From: Micromonospora nigra
GTDB lineage: Bacteria; Actinomycetota; Actinomycetes; Mycobacteriales; Micromonosporaceae
Direction: 5' to 3'
Length of the DNA: 64,000 nt
Assembly: GCF_900091585.1 (NCBI RefSeq)
Contig: NZ_FMHT01000003.1
Span: forward strand, 62,001 to 126,000
Positions 18,545-28,535 of the stretch are shown here, piece after piece (positions within the stretch are counted from its first letter, which is position 1; each line of letters opens with the position of its first letter). The notes beneath the pieces are model-generated. The model saw only the letters and a program-made list of their open reading frames with translations. It made no database searches and was not told the origin of the DNA. The translations under genes were made by a program, and so were the position numbers.

Positions 18545-20986
18545 TCACTCGGCCAGTTCCCGCCGCAGCCGGGCGCGCAGGCCGTGGACCTCGGGGGCGT
18601 CCAGTTCACCGCACCTGTCCAGGGCCCGCCGCCGCAGCAGCCGGGCGTCGGCCGTGCCGTCCGGGCCGGCCGGCGCCACCGTGGCCAGTGCCGCCAGCGC
18701 CTGCGCCTCCCACCAGGGGCTGGACACGGAGGCGAAGAGCCGCTGCGCCCGGCGCAGCTCGGTGCGGGCCGCCCCGGTGTCGCCCAGTTCCCGCAGCGCC
18801 AGGCCGTGCCGGTACGCGGCCGTGGCCTCGCCGAACGTCGAACCGGCCTGCCGGAACATCTGCCCGGCGCGGGCGTACTCCCCGGCGGCCTCCCGCCACC
18901 GGCCCAGCCCGGCCAGGGCCGCCGCCAGGCTCATCGTCGTGCTCGCCTGGCCGACGAGCGCGCCGGTGCCGCTGAGACCGGTGTCGCCGCGGTAGAACAC
19001 CAGCGCGGCCCGGTGCAGCTCCGCCGCCTCGGCGAACCGGCCGGCGGTCGTCAGGGCGACGCCCTGCACGTTGGCCGCACACCACTCCCCCAGCTCGTAG
19101 CGGACCTGACGGAACAGGGCCAACGCCCGGCGGGCGGCGGGCACGGCGAGGTCAGCCCGACCGGTACGCACCCCGATGGCGGCGCGGTACGTCAGCGCCC
19201 ACGCCTCCTCCCGCAGGTCACCCGACCGCGCGGCCAGATCCAGGGCGCGGTCCAGGGCGTCGAGTGCCTCGGTGTGCCGGTCCCGGCAGTGGTAACGGGC
19301 CCAGCCGAGGAAGTTGAGCAGCACGACCTCGTCGTGCGGGTTGCGCAGGGCCTGCGCGGCCGTCACCCCGAGGGAGAAGATCTCGTCCCAGCCGTGCCGG
19401 TGGGTGGCGACGTCGGAATACCAGTGCAGGGCCCGGGCGACCCGGACCACGTCGGCGTGCCGGCCCTGCCGGGCGGCGTCGCGCAGCGCGGCGAGCCAGT
19501 GCCCGGCCTCACGATCCAGCCAGTCGGCGGCGGCCCGGTGCCCCGCGAACGGGGAGGCGGTGCGGCGACCGGCCGGGTCGAAGGTGGCGGCGGCCCGCTC
19601 GGCGCGGGTGAGCAGCCAGGTGACCATGCCGTCGTGGGCGTCGCGCCGCCGCTGCGGGCTGTCGTCGGCGTCGAGGCGTTCCTGGGCGAAGAGCCGGACC
19701 AGGTCGTGGAACTGGTACCGGTCGCCGCAGGACGACAGCAGGCCCGCGTCGACGAGTTCCTCGGCGGACGCCAGCGCGGTGTCGGTGTCGGTGCCGGCCA
19801 CCGCAGCGACCAGGTCGACGTCGAAGTCGGAACCGGGGATCAGCGAGGCCCGCCGGAACACCGCGGCGACCGGGGTGCCGAGCTGCCGGTACGACACCGC
19901 GAACGCGGCCCGCACCCCGACGTCGCCCGCGGTGAGCGCGGTGAGCCTGCGGCGCTGGTCGCGGAGCTGGTCGACCAGGTGCCGCACCGGCCAGCCGGGA
20001 CGGGTGGCCAGCCGGTTCCCGGCGACCCGCAGCGCCAGCGGGAGCCGCCCGCAGAGCATCACGAGCTGGTCGACACCCGCGGGGTCGGCGGACACCCGGT
20101 CGGCGTCCACGATGCCGCTGAGCAGCTCCCGGGCGGCGGCCGGGTCGAGCACGTCCAGTGGGAGGCGGACGGCACCGGCCAGCCCGGCCAGCGGCCGGCG
20201 GGCCGTGACCAGCACGAGGCACCGGGAACCGGCCGGCAGCAGGGGCCGTACCTGGGCCTCGTCGGCGGCGTCGTCGACGACCAGCAGCAGCCGGCGGTCC
20301 CGGGTGAGGGTGCGGAACAGGTTGCCGCGCTGCCGGGCGTCGGCGGGGATCCGGTCGTCGGGGGCACCGAGTGAACGCAGCAGCCCGGCGAGGGCGTCGG
20401 TGGGTTCGACCCGCCCGGACGGGGTGGCACCGTGCAGGTCGACGAAGAGCTGGCCGTCGGGATAGGCGGAGCTGATCCGGTGCCCGGCGGCGACGGCGAG
20501 GCTGGTCTTGCCGGTGCCGGCCGGGCCGTGCAGCACCGCCACCCGTGGCCCGGTGTCGTGACCGGTGTCGGGCCGGTCGGCGGCCAGCCGCCGCACCGCG
20601 GCGAGTTCGTCGGCGCGGCCGGTCAGGTCGGGAATGGCGGCGGGCAGCTCGGCGGGGGGTGGCGGGTGGTCGGCGGGCCCGCCGGCCGCGAACGCGCCGG
20701 GCGGCTCGGGCTCCGTCGGCCGGGTCGTCGGGCAGCCGTCCCCGGGTGGGGCGGGGGCCGGTGGGCGGGCCCGGTCGAGGAAGTGCCGGCGCTGCGTGGC
20801 ATCGAGGTCGAGGGCGTCGGCGAGCAGCGCCACCGTGCGGCGTTGCGGGGAGCGGACCCGGCCGTTCTCCATCTCCCGGATGCCGCGGACGCTGGACCCG
20901 GACGCCTCGGCCAGGTCCTCCTGGGTGAGGCCGCGCCGACGGCGCAGGGCACGGAGCAGGTCGCCGAAGCCACCGTCGACGGGCAC
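18545..20986 (-). CDS. XRE-HTH / NB-ARC ATPase / TPR transcriptional regulator
   Basis: 813 residues from the GTG at 20986 (GGGGG upstream); an in-frame ATG 28 codons further out is less likely. Residues about 5-70 form an XRE helix-turn-helix ('LLRALRRRRGLTQEDLAEASG'). A STAND-type NB-ARC ATPase follows, with Walker A 'GPAGTGKTS' near residue 155 and Walker B 'RLLLVVDDAAD'. The C-terminal ~400 residues are TPR repeats rich in Ala/Leu/Arg. This layout is common among large actinobacterial regulators of secondary metabolism. It ends the minus-strand series containing the lanthipeptide genes, but whether it controls them is unknown. Confidence 0.85.
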   Translation of the reverse strand: MPVDGGFGDLLRALRRRRGLTQEDLAEASGSSVRGIREMENGRVRSPQRRTVALLADALDLDATQRRHFLDRARPPAPAPPGDGCPTTRPTEPEPPGAFAAGGPADHPPPPAELPAAIPDLTGRADELAAVRRLAADRPDTGHDTGPRVAVLHGPAGTGKTSLAVAAGHRISSAYPDGQLFVDLHGATPSGRVEPTDALAGLLRSLGAPDDRIPADARQRGNLFRTLTRDRRLLLVVDDAADEAQVRPLLPAGSRCLVLVTARRPLAGLAGAVRLPLDVLDPAAARELLSGIVDADRVSADPAGVDQLVMLCGRLPLALRVAGNRLATRPGWPVRHLVDQLRDQRRRLTALTAGDVGVRAAFAVSYRQLGTPVAAVFRRASLIPGSDFDVDLVAAVAGTDTDTALASAEELVDAGLLSSCGDRYQFHDLVRLFAQERLDADDSPQRRRDAHDGMVTWLLTRAERAAATFDPAGRRTASPFAGHRAAADWLDREAGHWLAALRDAARQGRHADVVRVARALHWYSDVATHRHGWDEIFSLGVTAAQALRNPHDEVVLLNFLGWARYHCRDRHTEALDALDRALDLAARSGDLREEAWALTYRAAIGVRTGRADLAVPAARRALALFRQVRYELGEWCAANVQGVALTTAGRFAEAAELHRAALVFYRGDTGLSGTGALVGQASTTMSLAAALAGLGRWREAAGEYARAGQMFRQAGSTFGEATAAYRHGLALRELGDTGAARTELRRAQRLFASVSSPWWEAQALAALATVAPAGPDGTADARLLRRRALDRCGELDAPEVHGLRARLRRELAE

Positions 20987-21106
20987 GTTCCCCCCAGCAC
21001 CACACCGTCCACCATCACGTAGCGCACCGATGATCGCACGCAGTGTTCCGGCCCGGCAGGCCGGTCCCACGTGAACCTCGCCATAGGACGGTCGGTGGGC
21101 GCGAAC

Positions 21107-22360
21107 TCAGACCGGCTGAGGATCGGGGACCGCCGGCTCGGGCTCGCCGACGTGGCGCAGGTCGGGCACGGCGCGCACCGCCCGACCGGCGGTGCTGGCG
21201 ACTGCGAGCACCAGCAGGATCGCCGCGAAGACCAGGAACACCGCCCGGGTCGGGGTGTGGTCGAGCAGCAGCCCGGCCAGCGCCGGGCCGAACGGTGACA
21301 CGACGAGGGCGAGGAAGCTCGTCGCCGCGTTCGCCCGGCCCTGGAGATGGTCGGGGGTGAGCAGGGCCTGCAGGGTCAGCATGCTCACGTTGGCGGCGGG
21401 CACCAGCAGGGCGCAGGTCCCGGCGAGGGCACCGAGGACGTACCCGTCGTCGGTGCCGGCCATGGCCGCGACGAGCAGGGCGCAGGACCAGATGACCGCG
21501 AGGATCAGCCAGCGGGTGGGGATCCGCGCGGTCAGCCAGGACGCGACCAGAGAGCCGATGACCGCCCCGAGGCCGACGCAGGCCACGATGGAGCCGGCGG
21601 ACAACCCGGACGCGCCGTTGCGTACGGGCACCACGAGGATCGCCAGCAGCACCCCGGCGAAGGCGAAGTTCATCACCGCCCCGCCGACGAGGGTGTAGCG
21701 CAGGGGCGGCTGCCGCCACAGGAAGCGGACCCCGGCGACCGCCTGCCGGGGCAGCGAGTCGCCGGTCTCGGCCCGGCCCCGGCCCAGGGGCCCGCGCAGC
21801 AGCACCACCCCGACCAGCGCAACCGCGTACGACGCGGCGTCGACGAGGAACGGCAGGGCGGGGTTGAGCCCGAACAGCAGGCCACCCAGGGGCGGGCCGG
21901 CCAGGTAGACCATCCCGTTGCGGGTCTCGTTGAACACCGTCGCGGCGCGCAGGTCACGGGGCGCCACGACGGCCCGGGTGGCCGCGGCGGCGGCGGGTTG
22001 CAGGGCCGCGCCCAGCGCGGCGGACGCGGCGGCCAGGATCGCGATGACGAGCACCGGGGCGTCGCCGGTCAGCGCCAGCGCGGCCACGGCGACGGCGGCG
22101 AGCAGTGCCCCGGCGTCGCAGACGAGGATGATGATCCGGCGGTCCCGCCGGTCGGCCAGCAGCCCGGCGGGCAACAGGACGAGGACCAGCGCGACGCCCT
22201 CGGCGAAGGCGACCAGGCCGGCGTCGGTGGCCGACCCGGTCATCGCGAGCACCAGCAGCGGCATGGCCACGGCGGTGACCTGCGTGCCCAGCTTCGACAC
22301 GGTGCGGACGACGGCGAGCAGCAGGAAGTCGTGGTTGTGGCGCAGGCCGGCGGTCGGCAT
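21107..22360 (-). CDS. MFS transporter, probably lanthipeptide exporter
   Basis: 417 residues with about 12 membrane segments and the MFS loop motif 'LLADRRDRRIIIL' between helices 2 and 3. Resembles the enterobactin/macrolide-exporter branch ('FNETRNGMVYLAGPPLGGLL'). ATG 22360 has GGGAG upstream. It lies directly downstream of the two precursor genes on the same strand and no RamAB-type ABC pair is present, so export of the modified peptide or self-protection is a reasonable inference. Confidence 0.85.
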   Translation of the reverse strand: MPTAGLRHNHDFLLLAVVRTVSKLGTQVTAVAMPLLVLAMTGSATDAGLVAFAEGVALVLVLLPAGLLADRRDRRIIILVCDAGALLAAVAVAALALTGDAPVLVIAILAAASAALGAALQPAAAAATRAVVAPRDLRAATVFNETRNGMVYLAGPPLGGLLFGLNPALPFLVDAASYAVALVGVVLLRGPLGRGRAETGDSLPRQAVAGVRFLWRQPPLRYTLVGGAVMNFAFAGVLLAILVVPVRNGASGLSAGSIVACVGLGAVIGSLVASWLTARIPTRWLILAVIWSCALLVAAMAGTDDGYVLGALAGTCALLVPAANVSMLTLQALLTPDHLQGRANAATSFLALVVSPFGPALAGLLLDHTPTRAVFLVFAAILLVLAVASTAGRAVRAVPDLRHVGEPEPAVPDPQPV

Positions 22361-22437: not shown

Positions 22438-22512
22438 TGGCGCCGGTCACGCGTACCGCGACCGGCGGTTGCCCGGGTGGACGGGTGCCGCCCACCCGGA
22501 CCGTCGTACCGG

Positions 22513-22614
22513 TCAGTTGCAGTTGCAGAGCACGCTGACCGTGCTCGACAGCGCCGGCACGCGGGTCACGGCGGTCTGCGACCGCAGGCCCTGCAGGTTC
22601 AGGATGCTGCTCAT
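22513..22614 (-). CDS. Class III lanthipeptide precursor peptide 1
   Basis: 33-residue peptide on the minus strand, ATG at 22614, stop TGA at 22513. A strong Shine-Dalgarno (AGGGAGGT, complement of 22622-22629) sits 7 bases upstream. The leader begins 'MSSILNLQGLRSQ', matching the I/L-L-x-L-Q box recognised by LanKC enzymes. The C-terminal core is 'ALSSTVSVLCNCN': S24-T-V-S27-V-L-C30 is a perfect S-x2-S-x2-C labionin/lanthionine motif, with a second Cys at 32. Closely similar to precursor 2 downstream of lanKC, and clearly a paralogue. Too short for standard gene finders. The product would be a very small single-ring (or two-thioether) lanthipeptide. Confidence 0.88.
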   Translation of the reverse strand: MSSILNLQGLRSQTAVTRVPALSSTVSVLCNCN

Positions 22615-22683
22615 GAGGTTCACCTCCCTTCGGGTCGGTCGGGTCCGTGGCGACACCCCCGGTCGGGGCGCCACCCGGGTTGC

Positions 22684-22782
22684 TCAGCGGCAGTTGCAGC
22701 CGAAGCTCAACGTGCTCGACAGGGCGGGGGCGGCCTGGCGCACGGGAGTACGCAGGCCCTGGAAACCGAGGACGGCGGTCAT
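22684..22782 (-). CDS. Class III lanthipeptide precursor peptide 2
   Basis: 32-residue peptide, ATG at 22782, stop TGA at 22684, preceded by a full AAGGAGGT Shine-Dalgarno (complement of 22791-22798) 8 bases from the start. Leader 'MTAVLGFQGLRTP' has the L-x-F/L-Q box; the core is 'ALSSTLSFGCNCR' with S23-T-L-S26-F-G-C29 (S-x2-S-x2-C) and a second Cys at 31. It is the first gene after lanKC, 81 bases downstream, and the last shared ancestor of the pair differs mainly in the leader-core hinge and at ring positions (VL versus FG). Function inferred from motif and neighbourhood. Confidence 0.88.
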   Translation of the reverse strand: MTAVLGFQGLRTPVRQAAPALSSTLSFGCNCR

Positions 22783-22863
22783 GGATGGTCACCTCCTTGC
22801 GGTGTTCGTCGGGTCCGTCGCCGCTCCGTCGCGGCCACGGTGGTCGGGGTGGGCGCCGCCGGG

Positions 22864-25530
22864 TCAGCCGGCGACGCGCAGGGCTGCCGTGGCGACCGCC
22901 GGGGCGGTCGGTGCCGGCAGGTCGAGGAACGGCAGGGTGGCACCGGTGTGCCGCAGCGCCGCGTGCACCGCCAGCAGCACGCCCGCGCTGCCGGAGGCCA
23001 GGTCCGTCGACAGGCGCAGCATGGTGTCGCCGGGGAAGGCGGGCCGGCCGTCGAGCGCGACGGCGTGCCAGGCCAGGCGGTCCAGGTGCAGGTCGACGCA
23101 GCGACCGGGGTCGGATGCCGCGCCCACCGGCCGGTACGGGGTGGGCAGCGCCGGCCCGGACGGGCGACCGCCGGCCGGGTCGTGGCCGACCAGCAGGGCG
23201 GCGGTGGCGAGCAGACCCGCCCGGCCGTGGAACAACCCGGGCATGATCACGAACTCGGCCGCCAGGGCCCGACCGACCCGGGACACCACCTCGCGCAGCC
23301 AGGGGTGCTCGCCGTGGCGCAGCAGCGCCTGGGCCGCGACCGCGACACCCGCGCTGCCCTCGTCGAGGTAGACCAGCATCCGTGGGCCGTCCGCCACCTG
23401 GAGGTTGCCGCGGGCGTCGGTCACGCAGTGCGCCAGGTCGCGGTGCAGCGCCGCCCGGGCGGCCCGCAGCCAGGACTCCTCCCCGGTGAGTTCGTAGAGG
23501 CGGGTGAGGAAGACCGCCGGGCCGGACCAGCCCCGAAGCAGGCCGGGGCGGCGCGGTTCGGCCACCGGCCGGGCGGCGTCGCCGGCGAGGGTACGGGCCA
23601 GCCGCTCGCCGATGGCCAGCGCGTCGTCGGGCCGGTCGGGGGTGAGATGTGCCAGCGCCAGCCCGATGCCGGCCAGTCCGCTGTGCAGGGACACGCCGTG
23701 CCGGTCACCGGTGCGGCACCGCTCGATCAGTTCCCGCGCCTGCTCCCGCCGGCCGGCCGCGTCGAGGACGACGGCGACGCCGGCCGTCCCGTCGTAGAGG
23801 CCGAGGTACGCGTCGGGCAGGCGACGGGCGGCGCGCACGAGCCAGTCGAGGTGTTCCTCCCGCTCCGGGTACGGCGTGCCCGCGCGGGTCAGGGCCCAGA
23901 TGACGCCGGCCGCGCCGTGGGCGACGGTGGCGCCGCCGTGCGGGAACTGGCCGGGATCGCCGGGAAAGAGGCGGTCTTCGCGGTGCGGGGTGGCGGTGGC
24001 GCGGATGCCCTCGGCCAGCGCCTCCAGCAGCGGGCCACGCGCCTCGGGACGGCCGACGGGCCACGGGAACGCCGTGAGCCGCCGCGCCGCCGCCGACCGG
24101 TCGGGGTCCGGGTCGTCGTCACCGGCCGCCAGCGCGGCGCGCAGGTCCGCTCGGACGCGCCGGATCCAGCCCGTGGGCAGCGGGAACCGTTCGGCGATCT
24201 CGACGAGGTGGTCGAGCTTGCCGGCTGACAGGGCGAGGATCGGGGTTAGCGGTGCGAAGACACCGAGGCGCAGGCAGGCCAGCGCGTACCGGTCGACGGC
24301 CACGCCGCGGCGCACCCGGGGGGTGGCGAAGCCGGGGTCGCCGAGGGTCGGCGTGTAGTCCTCGTCGACGCCGTAGGCCTGTTCGAAGTCGACCAGCACG
24401 ACCCGACCGTCGGGGCGGATCATGACGTTGGCGGTGTGCAGGTCGCCGAAGACCACTCCCCGTCCGTGCACCCGCTCCAGGGCCCGGGCGACCCGTTCGA
24501 CGACGTCGACGGCCCAGGTCGTGTACGTGTGCAGGTCGTCGGGGGACGGGTCGGGATGGATCAGCGGGTGCCGCATGGCGAGGTGGTGCTGCAACGTCTC
24601 CCCCTCGACGAACTCCTCGACCAGGAACTCGTGCTCCCACCAGGTGAAGTGGTCGAGCAGCCGGGGCACGCAGTCCAGCCCCGCCAGGCGGGTCAGCGCG
24701 TCCCGCTCCCGCCGCAGCCGGGTCACCGCGTCGGTGCCGGCACCGTCCAGGCCGGCCAGCGGGCGGGCCTCGCGCAGCACGACGGCACGCCCGTCCCGCA
24801 GGTCGGTGGCGCGGTAGACGCCGCCGCCGTTGGAGTGGTGCAGGGCCTCCTCGATGCGGTACGGCTGCTCGGCGACCGCCTCCTCGGCCACCGCCCGCAT
24901 CCGCTCGGCCACGAAGTCCGGCACCGGCGCCCAGTCGGGAACGTGGAACACCGGTTCCCGCTCGTCGGGCACCAGCACGCCGTCGGGGCGCTCCACCGCC
25001 GGGACCGGTTCGTCACCGTCGACACACCACCGCTCGGCGAACCCGCCGTAGCGCAGGTACAGCGGGCCGTCGTGCCAACGCAGGTCGCTGAGCACGTACG
25101 GGCCACGGTGGCCGGTCAGCCGGTCACCCAGCTCGTCGAGGACGACCCGCAGCGCGGCCTCGTCGACGGGGTAGAGGGCGGCGAGCTTGCCACTGCCGCC
25201 CCGGTGTGCGTACTTCTCGTTGTGGGCCAGGGCGAGCCGGCGGCTGCGCAGGAACTTGAAGGCCACCCCGTGGCGGACACAGTGGTCACCGACCAGCTCC
25301 AGCACCTGCGCGGCGTCGTCCAGCCCCACCGAGACGTGCACCTTCCAGCCCTGGCGGGGCAGCTCCGCGTCCTGTGGGTGCCACATCACCCAGCCGCCCT
25401 GCTCGACGGCCCGCCAGCCGGGTGGCGGCGTGCGGTCGGCCAGCGGGAAGCGGGTGCCGGCGTCGGCGGTGTATGCGGGCGAGTCGACGAAGATGGGGTC
25501 GGCGAGCAGGAAGGCGCCTGGCGTGGGCAT
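22864..25530 (-). CDS. Class III lanthipeptide synthetase LanKC
   Basis: 888 residues, ATG 25530 with GAGGTG upstream. Three domains in order: an N-terminal lyase-like region (about 1-225, 'KVHVSVGLDDAAQVLELV', 'HNEKYAHRGGSGK'), a Ser/Thr-kinase-like domain (about 235-500) with catalytic D363 in 'VVFGDLHTANVMI' and metal-binding 'VLVDFEQAYG', and a LanC-like cyclase (about 520-888, 'HGAAGVIWAL', 'SLHSGLAGIGLAL', 'GLFHGRAGLLA'). The zinc-binding Cys-Cys-His of class I, II and IV cyclases is missing, which marks class III. It phosphorylates Ser/Thr in the precursors, eliminates phosphate and forms lanthionine or labionin rings. It heads the operon lanKC-lanA2-lanA1-MFS. Confidence 0.93.
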   Translation of the reverse strand: MPTPGAFLLADPIFVDSPAYTADAGTRFPLADRTPPPGWRAVEQGGWVMWHPQDAELPRQGWKVHVSVGLDDAAQVLELVGDHCVRHGVAFKFLRSRRLALAHNEKYAHRGGSGKLAALYPVDEAALRVVLDELGDRLTGHRGPYVLSDLRWHDGPLYLRYGGFAERWCVDGDEPVPAVERPDGVLVPDEREPVFHVPDWAPVPDFVAERMRAVAEEAVAEQPYRIEEALHHSNGGGVYRATDLRDGRAVVLREARPLAGLDGAGTDAVTRLRRERDALTRLAGLDCVPRLLDHFTWWEHEFLVEEFVEGETLQHHLAMRHPLIHPDPSPDDLHTYTTWAVDVVERVARALERVHGRGVVFGDLHTANVMIRPDGRVVLVDFEQAYGVDEDYTPTLGDPGFATPRVRRGVAVDRYALACLRLGVFAPLTPILALSAGKLDHLVEIAERFPLPTGWIRRVRADLRAALAAGDDDPDPDRSAAARRLTAFPWPVGRPEARGPLLEALAEGIRATATPHREDRLFPGDPGQFPHGGATVAHGAAGVIWALTRAGTPYPEREEHLDWLVRAARRLPDAYLGLYDGTAGVAVVLDAAGRREQARELIERCRTGDRHGVSLHSGLAGIGLALAHLTPDRPDDALAIGERLARTLAGDAARPVAEPRRPGLLRGWSGPAVFLTRLYELTGEESWLRAARAALHRDLAHCVTDARGNLQVADGPRMLVYLDEGSAGVAVAAQALLRHGEHPWLREVVSRVGRALAAEFVIMPGLFHGRAGLLATAALLVGHDPAGGRPSGPALPTPYRPVGAASDPGRCVDLHLDRLAWHAVALDGRPAFPGDTMLRLSTDLASGSAGVLLAVHAALRHTGATLPFLDLPAPTAPAVATAALRVAG

Positions 25531-25793: not shown

Positions 25794-26366
25794 ATGAAGA
25801 CCGAGACCCGGCGCCCGCCGGTCGTCGTGCTCCTACAGGTTCACCGCGAGGACGAGGGCTGGACGACGCAGGCCTGGGGGGTACCGCTCGACGGGCGGCG
25901 GTGCCTGCTGCGCGCGGCGGACCCCGGCGCGGTGCGCCCGGCCGACCGGGTGCGGCTCCTCGCCGTCTCCGGCTCCGGGCCGCGTCCGCGACGTACCGCG
26001 TTGGAGGCCGCCGGCGTGTCGGTGCTGCGGCGCGGCGGCACGGGCCGCCCGGACCTGCTGGCGGTCACCCTCGCCGCCGACCTGCCGGTGGACGGGCCGG
26101 TCGGGCACGGCACGGACGCCCGGGCGGTCCGCGACGTCGTCGCCCTGCTCGCCGACGACGACCGGACGCCGTGGCGGCTCGCCGACGGTCCGGATGACGG
26201 GGACGGCCCGGCCGGTGGCCCGGTTCCGGTGACCGTCGAGGGCTCCGCAGCCGACCGGACGGTCGGGCCCGCCGCCGCGCCGGACGACGGTGGGGACGAC
26301 GGTGGGGACGCCCCGCTGTCGTGGACCTGCCGAATCCTCGGGATCGGCTGCCCCGATCCGCAGTGA
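25794..26366 (+). CDS. Unrecognised 190-residue protein next to the lanthipeptide locus
   Basis: ATG 25794 has an ideal GGAGGT 8 bases upstream, and its TGA overlaps a GTG in the frame of the kinase gene, so it is a real, translated gene. About residues 1-105 look like a small folded alpha/beta domain ('VVVLLQVHREDEGWTTQAWGVPL'), followed by an acidic Gly/Asp/Pro-rich stretch (about 120-175) and an odd tail 'WTCRILGIGCPDPQ' with two Cys. No signal peptide or membrane segment. I do not recognise a family. It is divergent from lanKC and co-transcribed with a two-component system, so a signalling or cluster-accessory role is possible. Confidence 0.75.
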   Translation: MKTETRRPPVVVLLQVHREDEGWTTQAWGVPLDGRRCLLRAADPGAVRPADRVRLLAVSGSGPRPRRTALEAAGVSVLRRGGTGRPDLLAVTLAADLPVDGPVGHGTDARAVRDVVALLADDDRTPWRLADGPDDGDGPAGGPVPVTVEGSAADRTVGPAAAPDDGGDDGGDAPLSWTCRILGIGCPDPQ

Positions 26367-26383: not shown

Positions 26384-27685
26384 ATGACGACACCCGACGG
26401 CGGATCCGCCGCACCGGCGTCGCGGCGGTTCCGCGGCTGGCTGCGCCGGGACGTCCTGCTGCTACCGGTGCTGTGCCTGCTCGACCTGTTCACGGCGTCC
26501 TCGGTGGTGGTCAGCGACCATCCGGTGAGCCCGTCGGCGCGGGCGTGGCAGGTCGCCGCGGCCGTGGCCGCCTTCGCCGTGCTGGCCTGGCGGCGTCGCG
26601 CCCCGGTGGTGGTCTTCGCCGTCGAGTGCGCCCACGGGGTGGCGGTGTGGTTCCTGCTGCACGACTACCGGCCCACGCTCGCGCTGATCGTCGCCCTCTA
26701 CGCGGTGGCCGCGTCACGCCCCGTCGCCGTGTCGGCCGGCGCGTACGCGGCGGCGTGCGGGCGCGGCCTGCTCAACGCGGTGGACTCGTTCCGGGTGGAG
26801 CCCAACCCGGGCGCGCGGCCCGGCGAGTTCGCCGTCACCGCCCTGATGTTCGCCGTCATCTACGGCACCGCCTGGGCCGTGGGCCTGCTGACCCGTCGCC
26901 ACCACTGGCGGGTGGAACAGCTCGAACGGGACCGGCGCACCGCGCGGGCTGAGGCGGTGGCGTTGGAGCGGCGGCGGATCGCGGCGGAGCTGCACGACGT
27001 GGTGTCCCACTCGGTCACCGTCATGGTGTTGCAGGCCGCCGGGGCCGCCCGGCTCACCGAGACCGACCCGGAGCGGGCCCGGCAGGCGCTGCTGCACATC
27101 CAGCAGGCCGGGCAGCAGGCCATGGCCGAGCTGCGCCGGCTGCTGGACGTGATGCGGGTCGACGCCGGGCCGGACGTGGAGCGGCTGGACCCGCAGCCGA
27201 GCCTGGACGACGTGGAGGTGCTGCTCGCCTCGATGGCGCGGGCCGGGCTCTCGGTCACCAGCACGGTGTCGGGTGTTCCCACGAGCATCGACCCGAGCGT
27301 GGGGCTGGCCGCGTACCGGACGGTGCAGGAGAGTCTCACCAACACGCTCAAGCACGCCGGGCCGGGGGCCCGGGCCACCGTCCGGCTCGCCTGGGAGCAG
27401 CAGGTGCTGCTGGTGCGGGTCGAGGACGACGGCGGGTCCGCGCGCCGCCCGGCCGTGGCCGACGGTCTGTCCGCCGGTCACGGGTTGGCCAGCCTCACCG
27501 AGCGGATCCACCGCGTCGGGGGACGGCTGACCGCCGGTCCGCTCGCCGCCGGCGGGTTCCGGGTAACCGCGAGCCTCCCCATCGCCCACCGGCCCGACGT
27601 CGTCCTTCCGTCGGGCCGGGACCGGCGGTCCGGGGAGCCCGCGTACCCGATCGGAGATCATCCGCGTCCGCTGTCCGACAGCTGA
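26384..27685 (+). CDS. NarL-type sensor histidine kinase
   Basis: 433 residues from ATG 26384; GTG 26363, overlapping the previous stop, is an alternative. Four to five membrane helices occupy about residues 25-180, then a HisKA_3 dimerisation domain with phospho-acceptor H204 in 'RRRIAAELHDVVSHSV', and a HATPase_c domain ('TVQESLTNTLKHAG', 'GHGLASLTERIHRVGGRL'). No large extracellular domain, so it probably senses a membrane or cell-envelope signal. Cognate partner is the response regulator 106 bases downstream. Divergent placement beside lanKC suggests control of the lanthipeptide genes. Confidence 0.9.
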   Translation: MTTPDGGSAAPASRRFRGWLRRDVLLLPVLCLLDLFTASSVVVSDHPVSPSARAWQVAAAVAAFAVLAWRRRAPVVVFAVECAHGVAVWFLLHDYRPTLALIVALYAVAASRPVAVSAGAYAAACGRGLLNAVDSFRVEPNPGARPGEFAVTALMFAVIYGTAWAVGLLTRRHHWRVEQLERDRRTARAEAVALERRRIAAELHDVVSHSVTVMVLQAAGAARLTETDPERARQALLHIQQAGQQAMAELRRLLDVMRVDAGPDVERLDPQPSLDDVEVLLASMARAGLSVTSTVSGVPTSIDPSVGLAAYRTVQESLTNTLKHAGPGARATVRLAWEQQVLLVRVEDDGGSARRPAVADGLSAGHGLASLTERIHRVGGRLTAGPLAAGGFRVTASLPIAHRPDVVLPSGRDRRSGEPAYPIGDHPRPLSDS

Positions 27686-27791
27686 CTTCCCGACCGCCGG
27701 GGCGGGGCGGACGATCGGCGGTGCCGCCCCGGCCGTCGTGGGCGGTCGCACGGGCGCGCCGCCACCGCGCCGACGACCCACGGGAGGCGTG

Positions 27792-28535
27792 ATGCAGATC
27801 CGGGTGCTGCTCGCCGACGACCAGCCGCTCGTCCGCGCCGGGATCGCGATGCTGTTGTCCGCGGAGCCGGACGTCGAGATCGTGGCGGAGGCCGACGACG
27901 GGGCGCAGGCCGTCGAGCTCAGCCGCCAGCTCCGCCCGGACGTGGTGCTCATGGACGTGCGGATGCCGCACATCGACGGGGTGGCCGCGACCCGGGCGCT
28001 GGCTGCGGAACACCTGATCGACGATCCCGACCGTCCGGTACGGATCATCATCCTGACGACCTACCACGTGGACGAGGCGGTGCACGCCGCACTGCGCGCG
28101 GGGGCCTCCGGCTTCGTCCTCAAGGACGCGGCGCCGCAGGAACTGGTGGCGGCGGTGCGGGCGGTCGCCGCGGGTGAGGCCTGGCTGGACCCGGCCGTCA
28201 CCCGGCGGCTGCTCGACGACCTGGTGACCCGCCCGGATCCGGGCCTGCCCTCCCCCGTGCAGATGGCCCAGCTCACGCCCCGCGAGCGGGAGGTCCTGGT
28301 GCTCATGGCGTACGGGATGTCCAATCGGGAGATCGCCGAGCACCTGGTGCTGGGCGACGCGACGGTGAAGACCCACGTCAGCCGGGTGCTGATGAAACTG
28401 GGCCTGCGGGACCGCACACACGCCGTGGTCGCCGCCTACCAGAGCCGCCTCGTGCAGCCGGGCACCGCGCCGCCGGCCCCCGCCAGGGCGGCGGGGCCGG
28501 CCTGGCGGGGGCCGGCCCGCGCCTCACTCACGTGA
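27792..28535 (+). CDS. NarL/FixJ-family response regulator
   Basis: 247 residues, ATG 27792 with GGAGG upstream. Receiver domain (about 1-120) with acidic pair 'ADDQ', phospho-acceptor D55 in 'VLMDVRMPHIDG' and the conserved Lys in 'FVLKDAAPQEL'. LuxR-type DNA-binding domain near 160-220 ('LTPREREVLVLMAYGMSNREIAEHLVLGDATVKTHV'). Partner of the upstream kinase. It overlaps the convergent acyl-CoA synthetase gene by 12 bases. RamR, the activator of the SapB lanthipeptide in Streptomyces, belongs to the same family, which makes regulation of lanKC plausible but unproven. Confidence 0.92.
   Translation: MQIRVLLADDQPLVRAGIAMLLSAEPDVEIVAEADDGAQAVELSRQLRPDVVLMDVRMPHIDGVAATRALAAEHLIDDPDRPVRIIILTTYHVDEAVHAALRAGASGFVLKDAAPQELVAAVRAVAAGEAWLDPAVTRRLLDDLVTRPDPGLPSPVQMAQLTPREREVLVLMAYGMSNREIAEHLVLGDATVKTHVSRVLMKLGLRDRTHAVVAAYQSRLVQPGTAPPAPARAAGPAWRGPARASLT

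Follow-up and report, generated by a model that had tools for sequence, protein, structure and literature searches.

A conserved locus in Micromonospora nigra with the features of a class III lanthipeptide cluster and two short precursor genes

Gene content of the locus

The window, i.e. the whole analyzed stretch of 64,000 nucleotides from Micromonospora nigra, carries a LanKC gene upstream of two short precursor genes on the same strand, with a major facilitator (MFS) gene downstream of them. Orf25794 and two genes of a two-component system run divergent from LanKC. The following features were located:

18545..21070: AfsR-like regulator, to which the loci of the clade relatives show no match
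21107..22360, minus strand: MFS protein, presumed peptide exporter (family search; 71-77% identity in 6/6 relatives' loci)
22471..22501, minus strand: predicted 14-bp hairpin directly 3' of precursor 1, without a T run (folding; position by counting)
22513..22614, minus strand: precursor 1, 33 aa, MSSILNLQGLRSQTAVTRVPALSSTVSVLCNCN (frame, alignment, conservation, Markov control)
22621..22628, minus strand: ribosome site of precursor 1, GGGAGGTG (position by counting)
22645..22678, minus strand: predicted bulged hairpin directly 3' of precursor 2 (folding; position by counting)
22684..22782, minus strand: precursor 2, 32 aa, MTAVLGFQGLRTPVRQAAPALSSTLSFGCNCR (frame, alignment, conservation, Markov control)
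22789..22798, minus strand: ribosome site of precursor 2, AAGGAGGTGA (position by counting)
22864..25530, minus strand: LanKC, class III lanthionine synthetase, 888 aa (family models, alignment; mechanical open reading frame to 25707)
25794..26366, plus strand: Orf25794, 190 aa; a low-complexity linker precedes its C-terminal W-x-C-R-x-x-G-I-G-C-P tail
26384..27685, plus strand: sensor histidine kinase (HisKA_3; family search; start codon chosen by the analyst)
27738..28535, plus strand: NarL/LuxR-type response regulator (family search, relatives' loci)

The MFS, LanKC and Orf25794 genes are present in all six relatives' loci, and the histidine kinase and response regulator in five; in the remaining one (G015) the contig breaks off. 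The conserved set consists of response regulator, histidine kinase and Orf25794 in one direction and LanKC, one or two precursors and the MFS gene in the other. No protease gene belongs to it.

Precursor genes

An earlier note on this DNA, made from the letters alone, had reported a 33-codon gene with a strong ribosome site at 22513..22614. The gene was confirmed, on the minus strand, which the note had left out: the frame runs from ATG to TGA (22614..22513, 33 codons plus stop), and GGGAGGTG ends 6 bases upstream of the ATG. The plus strand over this interval reads SVAVAEHADRARQRRH... and encodes nothing notable. The ILNLQ leader and the S-x2-S-x2-C core with its extra Cys (S24-T-V-S27-V-L-C30-N-C32) are as the note described, except that the peptide ends in CNCN, not CNC. 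A single precursor had been implied; the second gene, at 22782..22684, had been missed. Precursor 1 supplies the L-x-L-Q leader box expected next to LanKC, to which the VLGFQ of precursor 2 is a looser match. The precursors contain the motif S-(X)2-S-(X)2-5-C, the form in which a passage of PMC8960859 writes the class III motif.

The core pattern occurs in 18 start-to-stop frames of 25-50 aa across the 64-kb window. Two of the 18 combine it with the leader box; both have a ribosome site and are precursors 1 and 2. Across 60 order-2 Markov sequences as long as the window, a mean of 7.9 frames carried the core pattern and 0.017 carried leader and core, none of them with a ribosome site too. A chance frame was rejected on the basis of this control and of conservation.

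Both precursors stay below the curated family cut-offs (NCBIfam lanthi_III_a/b/c, RamS), which are a naming rule and not a chemical definition. Precursor 1 matches all three NCBIfam models, with the best precursor score for lanthi_III_a (21.5 bits, cut-off 22) and 20.3 of 30 and 19.1 of 27 bits for lanthi_III_b and lanthi_III_c, respectively; precursor 2 matches lanthi_III_b only (18 of 30 bits). The best precursor score against the RamS model is 15.3 bits (cut-off 24.3). A scan of 296 genomes from the phylum with the lanthi_III_c model is uninformative, as the model matched neither these genomes nor its 14 controls. A protein-collection search with the precursor alignment returned four proteins at E ≤ 10. 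Neither window peptide was among them, which suggests that the precursors are not annotated in their own genome record. Plasmid carriage was rejected: precursor 1 had no tblastn match (E ≤ 1) in 72,556 plasmid records, a set from which records near this genome were possibly left out.

Minimum-energy folding placed a hairpin directly 3' of each of nine precursor genes of the clade, in G+C-rich DNA and without a shuffle control. Most are long and perfect or nearly so; those after precursor 2 and its counterpart in G156 are shorter and bulged. No T run is visible after the clade hairpins, which might act as attenuators or mRNA stabilizers.

LanKC synthetase

LanKC scores 953.5 bits against the class III model (cut-off 575) versus 364.9 bits against the class IV model and comprises RamC_N, kinase and LANC_like domains. 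The zinc-type LanC site reads C-H-G; the equivalent site here reads F-H-G. The combination of lyase, kinase and zinc-less LanC-like cyclase is that of a class III enzyme. All eight ThurKC lyase residues named in a passage of PMC10604976 (Lys65, His67, Lys94, Lys108, Lys117, Asp152, Arg163, Arg191) have identical counterparts, mapped by counting in an alignment in which chain 8sao was inferred to be ThurKC with the numbering shifted by 3. In the kinase, the alpha-C Glu and DFE are kept and the beta3 Lys (ThurKC Lys257) is replaced by Arg253.

The replacement is not a one-off oddity. In a 46-row tree, a branch with SH-aLRT 99 separates all 14 Arg-type LanKC proteins from 32 Lys-type proteins, and among the best 120 of 1749 proteins (E ≤ 1e-20, the window's included) the beta3 residue is Arg in 83, Lys in 36 and Leu in one. 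Arg at this position is accordingly widespread, and the Arg-type kinase is presumably functional. A single origin of the Arg was not upheld: the 46-row quick tree needs one Arg/Lys change versus five in a 160-row FastTree (159 rows scored).

Conservation among relatives

A 241-aa N-terminal piece of LanKC has matches in 169 of 354 genomes of the family (E ≤ 1e-40). Among the matches listed, seven reach at least 72% identity and the next best listed has 54%; the seven genomes are the window's own, five others of its genus and Dactylosporangium aurantiacum (G261). In 394 genomes of the class, the best match apart from the window's own is also at 54%. The precursor profile matches 14/354 family genomes at E ≤ 0.01. 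Strong matches (E ≤ 5.4e-16) occur in exactly the seven genomes with a close LanKC and in no other; the remaining seven have E values of 2.4e-4 to 7e-3, and the one weak case inspected (G154) is the precursor of another, Lys-type LanKC. A single peptide as query matched two of 160 genomes of the genus, its own included. Absence of the short frame from relatives that keep lanKC had been named in the earlier note as evidence against its reading; precursors are kept in all 7/354 genomes with a close LanKC. Together with the LanKC score, this co-occurrence bears out the assignment of the gene as a class III lanthipeptide precursor.

Both peptides are present in G156 and match GA0070617_0736 and _0737 of Micromonospora yangpuensis, a pair named 'hypothetical protein' in databases. 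Four relatives (G150, G058, G034, G015) have one common 34-aa peptide, MTKLLNLQAMATQNGTRHAVPPQSSSISIACCNG, whose gene is identical over 105 bases, so the four count as one observation that is uninformative on selection. The flanking spacers and LanKC of these four species-level genomes (loci L035, L037, L038, L039) do differ. UniRef places the G150-type peptide in the 'SapB/AmfS family', and NCBI names the Dactylosporangium relative, which ends in ...PVISSSYSFICCN, a 'class III lanthipeptide'. A LanKC close to that of the window is also carried by Micromonospora provocatoris, for which a passage of PMC8146288 lists a class III cluster without a match.

In six distinct precursors, aligned with CC set against CNC by a gap, the columns M1, L5, Q8, P20, S23, S24, S27, C30 and C32 are invariant. 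The cores keep P-x-x-S-S-[ST]-x-S-x-x-C-(N)-C, with the second Cys directly after or two residues after S-x2-S-x2-C, so that four conserved Ser/Thr and two Cys are packed into 9-10 residues. Over the last 14 codons, precursor 1 and its G156 counterpart share ten codons, with four synonymous and no non-synonymous changes; for precursor 2 the values are nine, three and two.

Orf25794 matches nothing in Pfam or NCBIfam at E ≤ 1. Its profile finds nine of the 354 family genomes, i.e. the same seven plus G193 and G206, and in 9/9 it is adjacent to LanKC or no more than about 6 kb away. It adjoins two-component genes in 8/9; in the ninth (G015), which is cut by the contig end, it is partial with an in-frame TAG near that end. 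All eight complete copies end in PL[ST]W-x-C-R-x-[FL]-G-I-G-C-P after a variable linker. The loci in G193 and G206 (L109, L110) contain the same two-component genes, the Orf25794 homologue, LanKC and a 31-aa precursor; they show two ABC-like matches, and the MFS protein has no match in them.

Predicted product and alternative explanations

The locus is best read, with a probability of roughly 0.88 and judged from sequence, as a full class III lanthipeptide cluster whose two short precursors resemble each other. This reading draws on the LanKC score, domains and lyase residues, the chance control, the co-occurrence, the gene set and the invariant residues, as well as on the synonymous-only change in the precursor 1 core and the database names of two relatives. 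Counted against it are precursor scores below cut-offs, the beta3 Arg, the missing protease gene and a spacing that differs from the Sx2Sx3C called the characteristic class III motif in a passage of PMC7268733.

LanKC would bind the L-x-x-Q leader helix and phosphorylate Ser/Thr in the SS[ST]xS block; phosphate removal by its lyase would give dehydro residues, to which the zinc-less cyclase would couple Cys30 and perhaps Cys32. A labionin would most probably span Ser24/Ser27/Cys30 (x2/x2 spacing), which would leave Ser23/Thr25 and Cys32 for one further thioether or a free thiol. A protease whose gene lies outside the cluster would cleave off the leader near the conserved Pro that stands three residues ahead of the first Ser. 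This would yield products of about 11-14 residues for export by the MFS protein; the adjoining two-component system probably controls the cluster. According to passages of PMC10885120, the prolyl oligopeptidase FlaP cuts flavipeptin after Pro, at -12, and others are trimmed by AplP-like M1 proteases. The genome has three M1 and eleven S9 protease matches, all outside the cluster; the S9 matches closest to it are at C3:55887-56366 (about 27 kb away) and C3:125598-125984 (about 35 kb away). With the cut sites guessed, calculated [M+H]+ values are 1256.576 (-3 H2O) and 1238.566 (-4 H2O) for ALSSTVSVLCNCN and 1304.587 (-3 H2O) and 1286.577 (-4 H2O) for ALSSTLSFGCNCR.

A product with (methyl)lanthionine rings only, Cys30 and Cys32 each adding once, would still be class III and is possible at somewhat below even odds. 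Two Cys and four Ser/Thr permit two simple thioethers, and the Sx2Sx3C motif leads to lanthionine in some class III peptides and to labionin in others, as a passage of PMC7268733 has it; the spacing here is one residue shorter. Against this, the S-x2-S pair required for labionin is invariant in 6/6 distinct precursors. It is very improbable that the system is failing through loss of phosphorylation by the beta3 Arg. Arg253 does align with the beta3 Lys of a solved LanKC, ThurKC, and a passage of PMC10604976 reports degraded peptide on changing this Lys257 to Ala. The Arg is nevertheless found in the whole supported clade of 14 and in 83 of the best 120 of 1749 proteins, the alpha-C Glu and DFE are retained, and the single comparison made, with G156, shows only synonymous changes in the precursor 1 core.

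A SapB-like morphogen for aerial growth, as class III membership, an actinomycete host and the UniRef name of one relative might indicate, is improbable: the core has one ring unit and not two, and the genome itself as well as G156 hold a separate SapB-like locus with two-unit precursors (e.g. ...GGGSQASLLLCGDSSLSVTTCN; L041, L048), so that this role is apparently filled already. Lipolanthines are defined by a C-terminal Cys, which avionin requires, and by conserved acyl-synthesis genes. An acylated, avionin-containing product of this type is hardly credible here, although acyl-CoA ligase-like and acyl-CoA dehydrogenase-like genes (28.5-33.9 kb; labels from reading translations, not from a family search) adjoin the cluster. 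Neither defining trait was found: the last residue is N, R or G in 6/6 distinct precursors, and of five relatives' loci reaching 3-5 kb beyond the response regulator, four have no match to the acyl genes while that of Dactylosporangium shows only 26-30% ligase matches on the cluster's other side. For the class III cluster preferred here, a role as secreted signal or antimicrobial, distinct from the SapB-like system, is most likely.

Comparison with known systems

The cluster shares the L-x-L-Q leader and LanKC with SapB/AmfS morphogens, which have two ring units instead of one; the genome's own SapB-like locus has matches to ABC-like genes (query labeled by reading) and the window cluster an MFS protein. 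Labyrinthopeptins have two S-x2-S units, x3 spacing and vicinal Cys. The S-x2-S units are alike and the vicinal Cys resemble the CC in the peptides from G150 and Dactylosporangium, while the window cores have one unit and x2 spacing. The single ring set, which the earlier note contrasted with the two of SapB or labyrinthopeptin cores, is uncommon but already known, since a passage of PMC8960859 describes single-motif class III cores (Pre_24; paenithopeptins, bacinapeptins). The Pre_24 peptides likewise combine one S-(X)2-S-(X)2-5-C motif with LanKC; they are from Firmicutes and, in that passage, carry a conserved Q-A-(A/V)-(D/E) motif cut by their proteases, which is absent from the window precursors. 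The further Cys of paenithopeptins is described there as held in a disulfide; a labionin plus intramolecular disulfide of this style is impossible with only two Cys. The earlier note is supported with corrections: it identified the kind of gene correctly and said nothing of the strand, the sister gene or the precedent already known.

The locus stands for a small subfamily that is conserved and has a number of odd traits, without proof of new chemistry. It is not wholly new, given the database names of two relatives and the single-motif peptides of Firmicutes; unusual are the compact Ser/Thr/Cys core, the predicted hairpins, the beta3 Arg and Orf25794 with its invariant tail. Literature searches, too narrow to prove absence, found no paper for the core sequences, for a CNC/labionin class III peptide, for class III precursor peptides with a major facilitator or for the catalytic lysine. 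A minimal class III subclass, in which a beta3-Arg LanKC and the dedicated partner Orf25794 serve a fully cross-linked core of about 10 residues, is rather unlikely. It would include an x2/x2 labionin plus a second thioether, with the four conserved Ser/Thr and the two Cys as their source, and the invariant W-x-C-R-x-x-G-I-G-C-P tail as docking peptide or second substrate. If the class III reading is true, the locus would offer a very small scaffold that is easily synthesized and engineered, a natural test of a LanKC kinase working with Arg where kinases normally carry Lys, and, in Orf25794, a concrete handle on an unassigned step.

Precursor length and other class III loci

Precursors are 31-35 aa long at 12 Arg-type loci versus 27-56 aa at 32 Lys-type loci (Mann-Whitney p 9e-6; shortest precursor per locus, kinship uncorrected, lengths hand-entered). 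The count leaves out L098/L124 (Arg-type, where the only frame seen, of 29 aa and about 1.5 kb ahead of lanKC, is doubtful), L097 (Lys-type, at a contig end) and a single 31-aa frame in G179, and enters the two Arg-type LanKC of L084 as one. Short precursors are not exclusive to Arg-type LanKC: Lys-type L103 has one of 27 aa and G154 has 28 and 29 aa.

The second, SapB-like class III locus of the same genome (L041, G000:C3:6028000-6046000) encodes two identical 39-aa precursors. Other Arg-type precursors have a Cys ahead of the Ser pair (WPCSNSYQS, CPSVNS, CPSQKS, CPSSHS, CPSHRS; further WPCFSYITTFDC, FPCWSYLTTFDC and WPCLSIFTSIDC), an order Cys-(x)-Ser-x-x-Ser/Thr that may indicate another ring topology. 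They are located at L084 2793-2888, L111 8629-9150, L109 9430-9525, L110 9743-9838 and L046 7061-7159. Beside Lys-type LanKC, class III precursors of 27-29 aa ending in STVSNNC, STVSNSC or STVSNNCF occur in two families (L123 7109-7348, L103 5132-5215).
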